This document shows, piece by piece, positions 26,794-62,576 of a DNA stretch of 64,000 nt; position 1 is the stretch's first letter; each line of letters opens with the position of its first letter. The notes beneath the pieces were generated by a model. That model had not been told where the DNA came from, searched no databases, and worked only from the letters and a program-made list of their open reading frames with translations. Origin of the DNA: Tenericutes bacterium MZ-XQ. GTDB lineage: Bacteria > Bacillota_I > Bacilli_A > Acholeplasmatales > Acholeplasmataceae. The DNA lies in assembly GCA_002838205.1 (NCBI GenBank), contig CP017950.1, positions 62,001-126,000 on the forward strand. Direction: 5' to 3'. Made by a program: the position numbers and the translations under genes.

Positions 26794-26832
26794 TGTAATA
26801 ACAATCATTAAATAGAAATGGAGAAAAGTAAT

Positions 26833-29520
26833 ATGAAATCCTTATTAAAAAAATCATGGTTCACAGGCGCTGTAGCAATAGGTCTGTTACTCTTAGTGTT
26901 TTTTATAAATCTTTCGGTAATGAACTTAAAACTAAAGTCACCTTATGAAGATGAAACAGTGATGTCTTTAGCAAACAATCTATCAACAGGTCGCTACGTT
27001 AACATCTTTTCTTTTGTTTTTATGCTTGTATTTTATATTTCATTCATTCCATTACTTTTATCAGGTTTCAGTTTTTTAAAAAAAACCAATTGGGGATTTG
27101 TTTCAGGGGTTTTATATTTTCTTGGATATAATTTAGGACTTATTGTTTATCAATCAAGCTATAATGTTTTACCGATCTTCGCAATCATATTAATCATATT
27201 TAATTTAATCATTATGGCGGGTATATTTGTTCTTCTGATTTTTAGGAAAAAGATACTTCTAGAAAACCAAGTGAGTGAAAAAACCGAAAAAGAGATTTTA
27301 TTAAATCAAACAAAAATACCGCTCGCTGTTTTGATTGTTGACTTTGTTGCAATAGCCGTTGCATTATCAACATTTTTCATTCCGCTTTATACATTGGGCG
27401 CAGTAAATCCATATCGTGCAATTTTAGCTTCTGTTTTATTTACAAGCGATTTAAGTCTTGATGTCATCATCTTTTTCTTTTATAACTTTGTCGTCTTTTT
27501 AAGTATCTTTTTATATTTATCTAGATGTTTAACCTATTACTTTTTTGATAAATCAAAGTTTATAACTGAATCAAAATCATTTATAAATTTTATTTTTATC
27601 ACAACAATTATATTTTTCATTACAGGATTATCGATGAGCACATACTACACGCTAAATAATGAAGTGGCTAGCACACCAGCGTTTATTCCGATGATTTTAA
27701 TGAGTGTTGTTATATTTGCTTATGCAATCTTTAGAGGAAAATATAATGCATTTTCGGAACTTAAAACTGAGGAAAAAAACAGCAAATATCCAAGAATTGA
27801 ACCGCTAGCCTATGTGATTTTATTAACACTTATTTCTACTGCAATGTTGTTTTTATATATCATAAAAATTGAAATAACTTATGGAACTTATACAAACTCA
27901 GTTCGACTATCTGGTTTAGATATTCTTAGAGATTATGCAGTTTTAGACCCTGGTTATCGAATAGTAGCTTTCTTATTGGTTGCTATGCTAATGACGGTTG
28001 GCATTACATTTGTAGTAAGCATATCAAGTTACCTTTCAAAGCATAAACAGTTTAGTAAGATAGTTATCCTAGCAACAGTGCTTAATGTTTTCTTTGTATT
28101 TATTATTGCTGTATCAGGTTTTTATTTCCAAATCGCTAAAGAGATCAATCAAAGTATTTTAATTGAAATATTCTCTATATATGGAATCAATCTACAAGAA
28201 GCTCTTGTCTACGAATATCAGATTAGTACAGATGCAATTTATGCCTTAATTGGATCTGTCATCGTATTAATCATCATGTTTATGAGAAAAGTATTTGATT
28301 ATGAAGAGCTTAATACATTAGAAGCTACACTCGCGCCTTCAAATGATGCAAACGAGATAAGCAGCGAATCAGTACCTGCAGATGCTTATGATGATGAGCA
28401 ATTAAAAAATTTTGATCCATGTCCAGCATTCACAGATCTAGATTCAAGAAAAGCAGTATTTAAAGAAGATTTAGACAAACGTTTAGGATATAAAACAAAA
28501 GAACCATCATTAAATGATCTAATTAATTTTGTTGTTGAATACGCCAGAAATTCAAGATTACATCTTTCGTATACACCAGAGGATATTGCGACATTTGTTG
28601 CTGGTATGGGCGCAAGCAAACTTTCCATTTTACAAGGTATGTCTGGTACAGGTAAAACAAGTTTACCTAAAATATTTTCAGAAGCTATTTATGGAAATAT
28701 CGATATTATCGAAGTTGAATCTTCATGGAAAGACAAAAATGAACTTTTAGGGTATTATAATGAGTTTTCGATGAAATACACACCGAAAAAATTCACTTTG
28801 GCTTTATATAAAGCAGCACTTAATCAAGATATTTTTACAATTATACTTCTTGATGAAATGAACTTATCAAGAATAGAGTATTATTTCTCAGATTTTCTTT
28901 CACTTATGGAGAACGAAGAAGATCAAAGAGAACTTAAGCTCATCAACATCAGACTAAATAGAAAAGAAGATGACGAGGAGATTGAGTATAGAGCACTAGA
29001 TCATGGAAATACACTCAAAGTACCACCAAACATATGGTTTATTGGTACAGCAAACCGCGATGAATCTACATTTGTTATATCAGATAAAGTATATGACCGT
29101 GCGCATACAATGAATTTCACGAAACGTGCACCTAAAGTGCGTAATTATGCAAATCCAATTTCTAGAAGATTTTTTGATTATAAAACCATGAATGACCTCT
29201 TTTTAAAGGCGAAAGATTCAGGAGACTTTGATGCAGAAAACAATGAAATCATTAAACAAGTTGAAGTTTTGTTAGCGCCTTATAATATTTCATTTGGGAA
29301 TCGCATCTTAAAACAAATAGAAGATTTCGTTAACATTTATAAAGCATGTTTCCCTAATGAAGATGTCGAAAACGAAGCCATCGAAAAGATCTTATTAAGT
29401 AAGGTTGTAGCTAAGTTAGAAGTTAAAACTATCGATGATAAAGAACAACTTGAGATGGCATTCGATAAATTGAACTTAAACTTATGCAGTGAGTTTATTA
29501 GACGTCTTGACAATGAATAA
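26833..29520 (+). CDS. McrB-like AAA+ ATPase with twelve-helix membrane domain
   Basis: 895 residues. About twelve hydrophobic helices fill residues 10-490; an acidic linker follows, then an AAA+ domain (about 555-860). Walker A is GMSGTGKTS, Walker B IILLDEMNLSRIEYYFSDFL, sensor region FIGTANRDESTF, and an arginine-rich segment ISRRFFDY. The DEMNLxRxExxFxDFL form is typical of McrB-clade ATPases, which work with an McrC/DUF2357 partner. Here the next gene is such a partner, overlapping by 8 bases. McrB proteins normally carry DNA-recognition domains; replacement by a polytopic membrane domain is unusual and suggests action at the membrane. Start chosen at 26833, after GGAG; an ATG at 26818 overlaps that site. 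Confidence 0.85.
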   Translation: MKSLLKKSWFTGAVAIGLLLLVFFINLSVMNLKLKSPYEDETVMSLANNLSTGRYVNIFSFVFMLVFYISFIPLLLSGFSFLKKTNWGFVSGVLYFLGYNLGLIVYQSSYNVLPIFAIILIIFNLIIMAGIFVLLIFRKKILLENQVSEKTEKEILLNQTKIPLAVLIVDFVAIAVALSTFFIPLYTLGAVNPYRAILASVLFTSDLSLDVIIFFFYNFVVFLSIFLYLSRCLTYYFFDKSKFITESKSFINFIFITTIIFFITGLSMSTYYTLNNEVASTPAFIPMILMSVVIFAYAIFRGKYNAFSELKTEEKNSKYPRIEPLAYVILLTLISTAMLFLYIIKIEITYGTYTNSVRLSGLDILRDYAVLDPGYRIVAFLLVAMLMTVGITFVVSISSYLSKHKQFSKIVILATVLNVFFVFIIAVSGFYFQIAKEINQSILIEIFSIYGINLQEALVYEYQISTDAIYALIGSVIVLIIMFMRKVFDYEELNTLEATLAPSNDANEISSESVPADAYDDEQLKNFDPCPAFTDLDSRKAVFKEDLDKRLGYKTKEPSLNDLINFVVEYARNSRLHLSYTPEDIATFVAGMGASKLSILQGMSGTGKTSLPKIFSEAIYGNIDIIEVESSWKDKNELLGYYNEFSMKYTPKKFTLALYKAALNQDIFTIILLDEMNLSRIEYYFSDFLSLMENEEDQRELKLINIRLNRKEDDEEIEYRALDHGNTLKVPPNIWFIGTANRDESTFVISDKVYDRAHTMNFTKRAPKVRNYANPISRRFFDYKTMNDLFLKAKDSGDFDAENNEIIKQVEVLLAPYNISFGNRILKQIEDFVNIYKACFPNEDVENEAIEKILLSKVVAKLEVKTIDDKEQLEMAFDKLNLNLCSEFIRRLDNE

Positions 29521-31078
29521 AGCAGAAAAACATTTTCCTCAAATTAAAATCGAGGAGTATCAAAGATTTGCGTCTTTATTAGAAGGCATTGACAGATTTA
29601 TAAAAAAACACCAAGTTGTTTCTTATATAGAGTTTGACTATTATGTCGTACACGATATGACATTGTTTTCCATTGAACCAGATTTTGATTTTGAAAAACT
29701 AAGTGAAATGATTGAGTATATCAGAAAATCATTATCAGCGATTAAAAGAATTTTTAATAAACCGATTATTGTCTTAAAAGATACAGATGATGTTCTTCCT
29801 GTTGAAAATACGCGCATCATCAATCAAAATACTTTGCTTCATTTAGCAAATCATAGTCAATATGTGGAAAACATCTCCAAAAGAGGTGTAAAACCAAGAA
29901 AATTACTGACAAGAATCTATGAAGATGATTATAGTATTTATGAGAATATTGTCTTTTGTAATTATATTGATGATGTTTTAGCACTGATTAAAAAGAATAG
30001 AAGAACCTTAAATAGTTTATTATATGCAAGTAATATCATGAAGTTTAATTTACTAGAAAAAGTAAACCATGTTAATTACTTTCTTGCTTTAGGTAAACTA
30101 CATACAGGTTATATTAGAGATTTCAGTCGTTATTTCAATTTATCAAAAGAGTTACTTAAAGAATTAGCGCATATCAGTCAAACGATAAATCCAAGATTAT
30201 ATAAACCCGTCTATAAGAAGAACCTAAGAAGAAATCGACACTTACCACTTAAAAAGACGAATATTTTTCTCATGCAGAAAGATTATCAAAGAGTCTATAA
30301 AACTTATAAATATTTACTAGGCAATCAAGTCCAAATCAAAGAAAAGGATATAACCCTTGATTTTGAAAATATGAGACATCATTTTTTATCGTATGTTCAA
30401 ATACTGACTATTTTTTCAGCAGGACATTTCAATTTCGAAATTGATCCCAATTTCAAGATCAATCTAAGTTCGTTAGATGTTACATTTACTTATAAAGGGT
30501 GGAAACTAGATATTTTTAGCAACAACAAAAAAGAAACAATCCTGCATTTCACTAAAGAAAAAGTATATAAAATCATCTTAGTTGGAAACGATTATGATCA
30601 TAAAAAGATTCATAGCTATAAAAAAGACTACGGAGTCGATGAAGTCATAGCAGTCAATCAATTTGAGGAGGACTACTTACAAAGAAAAGATGTCCTTATT
30701 AGTATTGAAGATATAGACTCTTTTAGAAGGATTCAACAAATTATTCTTAAGGGTATGATTTATGCAGATACCAAAAGAGACGTTTGTCCATTTTGTGGAG
30801 GAAAACTTCGAAAAGAACCACATCAGAACTTGTATCAATGCGATAGTTGTATGACACAAATTAAAAAAGCTCTTTGTGAAGAGACAAAGAAACCATTTTT
30901 CTATACAGATATTGCACATTTAAAAAAACATGTGATTAAGAAATCGGATTTTGAACACGGTGATACTTGGTATTATGAAAAACAAGTAGAGTCCCTAATG
31001 TATTATAGAAATATCACTAGAATTAATGAGCAAGGCGACATTATTTGTCCACATTGCCACAAGGTGCATGAGAGTTAA
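29513..31078 (+). CDS. DUF2357/McrC-like partner protein with C-terminal zinc ribbon
   Basis: 521-residue soluble protein. The middle matches DUF2357 features: RIYEDDYSIYENIVFCNYI near residue 140 and NLRRNRHLPLKKTNIFLMQK near residue 240. The following region (LDVTFTYKGWKLDIFSNNKK) is where McrC proteins carry a PD-(D/E)xK nuclease, but no clear catalytic Asp/Glu-x-Lys is visible, so it may be inactive. A zinc ribbon (CPFCGG, then CDSC near residues 425-445) and a last CPHCH end the protein. The ATG overlaps the AAA+ gene by 8 bases, so the two form one coupled operon. Confidence 0.78.
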   Translation: MNKAEKHFPQIKIEEYQRFASLLEGIDRFIKKHQVVSYIEFDYYVVHDMTLFSIEPDFDFEKLSEMIEYIRKSLSAIKRIFNKPIIVLKDTDDVLPVENTRIINQNTLLHLANHSQYVENISKRGVKPRKLLTRIYEDDYSIYENIVFCNYIDDVLALIKKNRRTLNSLLYASNIMKFNLLEKVNHVNYFLALGKLHTGYIRDFSRYFNLSKELLKELAHISQTINPRLYKPVYKKNLRRNRHLPLKKTNIFLMQKDYQRVYKTYKYLLGNQVQIKEKDITLDFENMRHHFLSYVQILTIFSAGHFNFEIDPNFKINLSSLDVTFTYKGWKLDIFSNNKKETILHFTKEKVYKIILVGNDYDHKKIHSYKKDYGVDEVIAVNQFEEDYLQRKDVLISIEDIDSFRRIQQIILKGMIYADTKRDVCPFCGGKLRKEPHQNLYQCDSCMTQIKKALCEETKKPFFYTDIAHLKKHVIKKSDFEHGDTWYYEKQVESLMYYRNITRINEQGDIICPHCHKVHES

Positions 31079-31087
31079 ATGAAAATA

Positions 31088-31128
31088 AAAGAAGTTTAGT
31101 AAGTTTATTCTACTAAGCTTCTTTTTTT
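31088..31128. terminator. Bidirectional terminator
   Basis: GAAGtTTAGTA...TACTAAgCTTC with A-run before and T-run after; serves the McrB-like operon and the convergent aldo/keto reductase. Confidence 0.85.
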
Positions 31129-61658: not shown

Positions 61659-62576
61659 ATGTCTAAACCAAAGAATCAAATGCGTTATCTTAATGTAAAT
61701 AGATATCTACTTCATAAACAATCAACAATCAGTGAAGATGTCTTTGAATTAGAGAAAAAAATGAAAAGTATATTGGATCAAAAAATTTCAGGGATAAGTT
61801 TCAGTCCTTATTTGGAAGGGCAAGATCCAAGTGTGAAATCCATCATTTCTCACGAGCAAATAGCTGATCGCTTAGAAATTATTAGACCTTATACACATTG
61901 GGTTAGAACTTTCTCAGCAACAAATGGAAATGAAGAAGTTCCAAGAATCGCTCATGAAAAAAATCTAAAAACACTCGTGGGTGCTTGGATCGATAGCGAT
62001 GAAGAAAACAATGAACTTGAAATCAATAACATCATAGAAATCGCTAAAAATGGACATGCAGATTTGATTGCGATTGGTAATGAGGTTTTGCTTAGAGAAG
62101 ATTTAGAAGTTGAACAACTTATAGATTATATCAAAAGAGTAAAAGCTGCTGTACCACATGTTCCAGTAGGATATGTAGATGCTTATTACATGTTTGTGAA
62201 TTATCCAGAAATTGTAGATGCATGTGATGTTATATTTGCGAACTGTTATCCTTTTTGGGAACATTGCGCACTTGATATTTCAGTAGAATACATGAAAAAA
62301 ATGTATGAACTTGCTGTTAAACATGCAAAAGGAAAACCTGTTGTGATTAGCGAAACAGGTTGGCCAACAAAAGGTGAACAATATGGAGGAGCTGTTCCTT
62401 CATATGAGAATGCCATGAGATATTTTATTAACACCTATGAGTGGGCTAATCAAGAAAACATCCACCTATTTTATTTTTCATCATTTGATGAAATATGGAA
62501 GATCAATCACGAAGGCGAATACGGTGCATACTGGGGTCTTTGGGATAAGGACGGCAAATACAAATTTAAAAAATAG
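61659..62576 (+). CDS. GH17-like beta-1,3-glucan-active enzyme (1)
   Basis: 305 residues, (beta/alpha)8 barrel of clan GH-A. Acid/base Glu in LIAIGNEVLLR near residue 145, nucleophile Glu in VISETGWPT near residue 232, substrate region ANCYPFWEH and FYFSSFDEIWK. These are the GH17 signatures. No signal peptide or TM, so it should act in the cytoplasm unless exported otherwise, unusual for a glucanase. AAAGGGG precedes the ATG; a related gene follows 21 bases later. Confidence 0.9.
   Translation: MSKPKNQMRYLNVNRYLLHKQSTISEDVFELEKKMKSILDQKISGISFSPYLEGQDPSVKSIISHEQIADRLEIIRPYTHWVRTFSATNGNEEVPRIAHEKNLKTLVGAWIDSDEENNELEINNIIEIAKNGHADLIAIGNEVLLREDLEVEQLIDYIKRVKAAVPHVPVGYVDAYYMFVNYPEIVDACDVIFANCYPFWEHCALDISVEYMKKMYELAVKHAKGKPVVISETGWPTKGEQYGGAVPSYENAMRYFINTYEWANQENIHLFYFSSFDEIWKINHEGEYGAYWGLWDKDGKYKFKK

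Follow-up and report, generated by a model that had tools for sequence, protein, structure and literature searches.

A polytopic membrane McrB-like protein and its McrC/DUF2357-like partner in Tenericutes bacterium MZ-XQ: a candidate membrane-anchored defence system

Few defence enzymes are as abundant as motors of the McrBC type. The McrB subunits of McrBC assemble into a hexamer and carry an N-terminal domain that reads DNA, and the DUF2357 stalk of McrC touches the ring and stimulates hydrolysis. A two-gene operon of Tenericutes bacterium MZ-XQ raises the question of what such a system does when the motor persists, the nuclease is apparently inactive and a large modular membrane domain stands where the target-reading domain would be. 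The operon (genes B and C, hereafter the pair) occupies positions 26833-31078, + strand, of the stretch analysed here (the window), which comprises 64,000 nt of contig CP017950.1 at forward-strand positions 62,001 to 126,000. In this study, we describe the pair and its relatives, and propose tentatively that it may be a membrane-anchored McrBC-type defence system with a membrane output, in which C would act as nucleic-acid sensor and activator; we consider this reading a serious possibility, short of probable.

The signature motif of McrB proteins occurs in NxD and NxxD forms, as defined in PMC11090510. The NxD relatives described in that paper include the CoCoNuT systems, which are predicted RNA-targeting defence systems, and CoCoPALM, in which the NxD McrB has an FtsB-like transmembrane (TM) anchor; on the account given there, no NxD member has been characterised so far. 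No paper on a polytopic McrB was found, and the main text of PMC11090510 names just the FtsB-like anchor for McrB. The original prediction had treated a membrane-bound McrB with a possibly inactive nuclease as a different effector concept. Anchored NxD McrB (CoCoPALM) and nuclease-dead McrC (CoCoNuT types II and III; PMC11090510) were already known, however.

Architecture of the two proteins

Residues are numbered from the upstream ATG at 26818 for B and from the GTG at 29489 for C, and all features given below lie on the + strand. The motor of B is an AAA+ domain assigned to the NxD clade of McrB (residues 556-898, 28483..29511) on its Walker A and B, sensor and NxD motifs, its modelled fold and its place in the tree. 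Walker A (GMSGTGKT), Walker B (LLDEMN) and the NxD motif (GTANRDES) were kept in 41/41 members, the x of NxD excepted, as were the conserved arginines of the motor; in the window the signature reads N746 R747 D748 (29053..29061). The motor model matched E. coli McrB with a Z of 14.4 over 182 residues. Other AAA+ proteins (MoxR-type, dynein) scored about equally, and the placing of B among McrB proteins therefore draws also on its partner and on how closely its sequence resembles that of NxD McrB proteins. The profile of B found no match by sequence among solved structures, and the PADLOC candidate-defence model PDC-M26A matched all 41 members.

The N-terminal half of B was predicted to lie in the membrane. 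The AlphaFold2 (AF2) model, built with 41 relatives (pLDDT 80.8), has 12 TM helices, a disordered linker and the AAA+ domain. Hydropathy counted 11 TM segments in the window, 12 in most relatives, and 10-12 across the window and most full-length relatives; two relatives had 8-9. Because the lysine/arginine content of the loops is strongly biased (0.22 inside vs 0.06 outside), the N-terminus and the motor are predicted to be cytosolic. An McrB-clade AAA+ motor fused to about twelve TM helices, as first proposed, was thus recovered, and the suggestion that these helices stand in place of a DNA-reading domain also held, since Pfam found no such domain (ADAM/DUF3578, EVE and others) on B and the N-terminal half consists of the 12 TM helices. 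No recognised TM family could be assigned to this part, the searches giving weak hydrophobic noise only (CNNM, 7TM).

The membrane part looks like a series of 4-helix modules, three in the window and two in a few relatives, as judged from the AF2 helices and from profile similarity. The modules span residues 13-149 (26854..27264), 167-313 (27316..27756) and 327-489 (27796..28284). Comparisons between them by hhalign gave probabilities of 53-60, in register where module 3 was compared, and cross-comparisons with reversed profiles gave 1-5. Modules 1 and 2 reached 41-44 against their own reversed profiles, and the claim of a repeat therefore leans also on L092 and L099, relatives with an 8-helix B from which TM1-4, the first module, are missing as a unit. 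The cytosolic linker (28285..28482) is partly disordered, with pLDDT under 50 at residues 496-529, and carries a conserved FD.CPAF.ELD motif at 532-542. On average, the motors of the members were 73% identical to that of the window and their membrane parts 34%; a part that confers specificity or acts as effector under conflict would be expected to evolve as fast as this membrane part does.

The partner C was found to carry a DUF2357-type helical and stalk domain at about residues 43-282 (29615..30334). PF09823 (DUF2357) was detected in 14/49 C proteins, with a best E of 7e-7, and four of the five top structural matches of the C model were solved McrC chains of E. coli and Thermococcus; their Z of 7.1-7.9 is too low to convince alone, but the identity of the matches is consistent. 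A putative remnant of a PD-(D/E)xK-like domain follows at about residues 290-426 (30356..30766), where the helix and strand order of the AF2 model is that of the PD-(D/E)xK fold. The McrC alignments run to residues 422-423, and weak matches to the Can2/Cdn1 nucleases were seen. The catalytic residues are gone: among the 49 partners there is no conserved acidic pair and no column that is acidic in at least 50% at residues 323-345, where both catalytic strands lie. The C-terminal part (30785..31069) holds C433, C436, C451, C454, C463, C520 and C523, present in 100% of members, and H527, present in 94%. These residues are enough for two predicted zinc sites (C433/C436/C451/C454 and C463/C520/C523/H527, the split into two being our assignment), in agreement with Zn-ribbon Pfam matches, and zinc ribbons were the only matches of the C profile by sequence to solved structures. 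Beside the zinc site R413, R414 and D427 are invariant and D410 is nearly so. A partner with DUF2357 features and a zinc ribbon, lacking clear PD-(D/E)xK residues, had been predicted, and the family-wide data confirmed it.

Both open reading frames (26818-29520 and 29489-31078) are open throughout. The best start of B is the ATG at 26833, as in the original prediction; GGAGAA lies upstream and relatives begin at the same Met, which gives a protein of 895 aa (26833..29520). The best start of C is the ATG at 29513, for a protein of 521 aa (29513..31078; AF2 pLDDT 82.4) whose gene overlaps B by 8 nt, an overlap that recurs in strain MO-XQ. A likely intrinsic terminator follows (31090..31128), with a 12-bp stem, a 9-nt loop and a T run; it was read from the sequence, the loop exceeding the length that the terminator scanner accepts. 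Pfam gave weak AAA and zinc-ribbon matches only for the window's own two proteins, and the identification of the pair rests for this reason on family profiles and structure. Chance reading frames were ruled out, as the same two-gene architecture occurs in about 50 homologous loci of other genomes.

Phylogeny and comparison with known systems

A single scan of 84,980 species genomes yielded 51 loci with C. The polytopic B stood directly upstream of C in all loci where the contig reaches; broken copies were a B split into two frames in L073 and L097 and a frameshift within the motor in the congener G004. The proposed phylogeny check placed the motors of the pair in one clade (49 rows, support 100/99), drawn from Acholeplasmatales, Anaeroplasma-type bacteria and Clostridia and separate from 22 CoCoPALM-like motors of the order and 4 CoCoNuT-like motors. 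The stem of this clade groups with the CoCoNuT rows (96/79), the pair forming its own clade on a long stem; the CoCoNuT rows are few and long-branch caution applies. E. coli McrB has a very long branch in the motor tree, and the exact placing of the clade is unsure. Within the NxD McrBC group the pair makes up a new and clearly bounded branch, third beside CoCoNuT and CoCoPALM.

The nearest non-membrane relative in the tree, on a long branch, was a soluble NxD McrB-like protein of 824 aa with GTANQD (L110:4798-7272), encoded on a contig deposited as phage (MT835511), which is unverified. A viral or plasmid origin of the pair was rejected, there being no IMG/VR relative and only motor-domain matches among phages and plasmids. 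In genome G014, a 437-aa frame (L048:4694-6007) fuses part of the B membrane domain directly to the C-terminal region of C, which comprises the dead nuclease and the zinc sites; the motor and DUF2357 are absent and every zinc cysteine is retained, and the frame is either an in-frame deletion or a genuine single-protein derivative.

The pair shares with CoCoNuT an NxD motor, the B-C gene order and the match to PDC-M26A, and C resembles type II CnuC in having DUF2357, an inactivated PD-(D/E)xK domain and a zinc ribbon. In contrast to the long coiled coils on the CoCoNuT B, the model of the present B shows 12 TM helices and a short disordered linker, and its motors form their own clade. No CnuH helicase, HEPN RNase (CnuE) or TerY-P genes were found near the pair, although type I would not need nucleases or a helicase. 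With E. coli K-12 McrBC (Type IV restriction) the pair shares the two-gene operon and, in predicted models, the McrB fold (Z 14.4) and the McrC fold (Z 7.1-7.2); it differs in having NxD rather than NxxD, no DNA-binding N-terminal domain and no nuclease residues. Membrane-effector abortive defence systems are, like the pair, accessory, can sit near defence genes and combine a nucleotide-driven switch with a TM part. No common TM family was recognised between them and the pair, whose polytopic domain is much larger.

CoCoPALM likewise combines a membrane-anchored NxD motor with a DUF2357 partner. Its B, however, has an FtsB-like TM segment and a coiled coil instead of a polytopic 12-TM domain, its motors are about 38% identical to those of the pair and form a separate clade, and its operon holds signal peptidase and secreted or pilus genes, which the pair's operon lacks save by adjacency in L075. 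The genome of the window carries two CoCoPALM operons about 14.7 kb apart, at about 609-637 kb of G000:C1 (L035:4206-14133, L036:5606-12709). Between them they encode NxD McrB proteins of 513 and 522 aa together with signal peptidases and several secreted proteins of a TasA-like 'AWFT' type, and only in the first operon (L035) was a DUF2357 protein with a coiled coil (621 aa) observed. Two CoCoPALM copies with similar spacing also occur in G001, G003, G006, G019 and G030.

Two further loci (L050:7262-9028, L075:7247-9064) encode 4-TM NxD McrB-like proteins together with signal peptidase, TasA-like proteins and a zinc-bearing DUF2357-like protein, and in L075 this operon begins 127 nt past the pair. 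The 4-TM form is possibly an intermediate between CoCoPALM and the 12-TM form. The L050 4-TM region matched module 2 of B weakly (hhalign probability 56) and all other L050 and L075 comparisons gave at most 18, and we do not claim that these proteins carry a copy of the module. In G018 (L049:3332-7926), two NxD McrB genes with 1-2 TM segments and identical motor sequence flank a coiled-coil DUF2357-like gene, adjacent to a large secreted protein, which looks like a recent duplication or gene conversion.

Distribution and genomic context

Across the order, 36 of 160 genomes scored above threshold for C. Three of these (G031, G145, G147) look like CoCoPALM-type DUF2357 matches, so that about 33 are true; G014 holds the fusion, and standard copies occur in about 32 of the 160 genomes (20%). 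Among high-quality genomes of the order 20/88 were above threshold, one of them (G031) being merely a CoCoPALM-like match. The window's genome and its congener MO-XQ (G001) share one site, the congeners G003 and G004 share another, and G002 lacks the pair. An interval bounded by the oxaloacetate decarboxylase (oadA) operon and a common 168-aa gene (84% identical) holds the pair in G003 and G004, in opposite orientations and with different companions. Those in G003 are Drt3a, Drt3b and an AbiE-like pair; those in G004, in or beside the interval, are AbiEii, HipA with a small helix-turn-helix gene (HipA/HipB-like) and a DUF4143 ATPase (PDC-S01). In the window's genome and MO-XQ the oadA operon is flanked by sugar-transport genes instead. 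In these two congeners, where the island was seen, the pair behaves like cargo of a variable defence-rich island. Within an oadA/168-aa-gene island of a congener, the Drt3a/Drt3b reverse transcriptases are divergently oriented and accompanied by the AbiE-like pair (L039:3629-7254, L039:15378-16929).

Divergent loci have no third gene in common; the small local clusters that do occur track species synteny, and no conserved nuclease gene was found nearby. Very large secreted proteins adjoin the pair on the same strand in three Clostridia loci (L082:1198-4221, L085:9972-17537, L093:9955-17490). With its patchy distribution and its different sites in congeners, the pair is not a housekeeping system; it is accessory and mobile. 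Of the two outcomes foreseen when the pair was first noticed, the accessory one was found, with two congeners carrying it among recognised defence genes, and the alternative of a housekeeping function peculiar to the lineage was not supported.

Candidate functions of the pair

Because the motor is invariant in 41 members and the nuclease motif is lost in 49/49 partners, the motor appears to be kept under selection for an output other than DNA cutting by C. With membrane modules in place of the reading domain and an inactivated cutting domain, but with motor, stalk and zinc sites all retained, the simplest view is that C serves as sensor and activator and that B works at the membrane. In the proposed mechanism, B would assemble, as McrB does, into an AAA+ ring at the cytosolic side of the membrane, with 4-TM modules, usually three, filling the N-terminal slot that in classical McrB holds the DNA-reading domain. 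Docked into this ring by its DUF2357 stalk, C would stimulate the hydrolysis of NTP, and the trigger would most likely be foreign or aberrant DNA or RNA bound by the inactive nuclease fold and the zinc sites of C. Hydrolysis might then rearrange the ring of membrane helices, so that the membrane is disturbed (ion leak, growth arrest) or shut to incoming DNA, with an anti-phage or anti-plasmid effect. The membrane action may be a leak, a gate against DNA entry or the handling of membrane or surface proteins, between which sequence does not decide. One specific form, in which the power stroke of the McrB-type ring drives a ring of 4-TM-module helices (six subunits of twelve, 72 in all) as a nucleic-acid-triggered membrane gate, is compatible with all data seen, including in this the gate driven by a McrB hexamer first suggested for the pair, and we regard it as possible though rather doubtful.

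Several observations weigh against a defence system with membrane output. The neighbours of the pair in the window are metabolic genes, no defence gene recurs beside it across the other loci, and the PADLOC neighbour scan names families rather than proteins and has no base rate. IMG/VR viral contigs gave no match to the pair, and phages and plasmids gave motor-domain matches only, none of full length. Membrane disruption has no backing from a known pore fold, the TM part having no recognised family, and the literature yielded no experimental work on an NxD McrB. Several of the Clostridia copies share a syntenic setting with a release-factor-like gene and large secreted proteins close by, an arrangement in line with vertical inheritance and possibly with a role at the surface.

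Such a role is the main rival, and a somewhat unlikely one in our estimate: a CoCoPALM-like surface or secretion machine, whose motor, regulated by C, would work from the membrane on proteins outside the cytoplasm (pilus or TasA-like fibres, large surface proteins). The two CoCoPALM operons of the same genome, with their TM-anchored NxD McrB, signal peptidase and TasA-like proteins, speak for it, as do the L050 and L075 operons, which combine a 4-TM NxD McrB with signal peptidase and secreted proteins (that of L075 adjoins the pair), and the large secreted proteins of the Clostridia loci. Yet neither signal peptidase genes nor genes for secreted proteins are conserved beside the polytopic pair, its clade is separate from CoCoPALM with a stem that groups with CoCoNuT (subject to the long-branch caution), and the defence-rich island of the two congeners contains neither kind of gene. 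Restriction at the site of entry is unlikely. In this reading a membrane-tethered motor would intercept DNA on its way in, and either a host nuclease or an unrecognised active site would do the cutting. Such restriction would agree with the McrBC-type anatomy and with an anchor where DNA enters, and R413, R414, D427 and D410 could be catalytic or bind nucleic acid; against it, all 49 partners miss the PD-(D/E)xK residues, no nuclease gene is conserved nearby, and a tether needs fewer than twelve TM helices.

A lineage-specific housekeeping task, for instance in membrane protein quality control or cell division, might be read from the standalone operon with its own terminator-like hairpin and from the common synteny in a few Clostridia. 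It is largely refuted by the distribution, with about 80% of the order's genomes lacking the pair, absence or frameshift in congeners and differing locations, and we consider it very improbable. That the pair is a decaying, functionless remnant of McrBC is hardly credible: the nuclease residues are lost, the G004 copy is frameshifted and those of L073 and L097 are split, but the frames are open and the motor, DUF2357 and zinc residues invariant over deep divergence. The membrane-anchored defence system proposed at the outset raises a wider question: can the defence output of an AAA+ ring be an action on the membrane, or does the ring handle surface proteins as proposed for CoCoPALM? The membrane gate, if true, would be an effector principle new for the McrBC superfamily.

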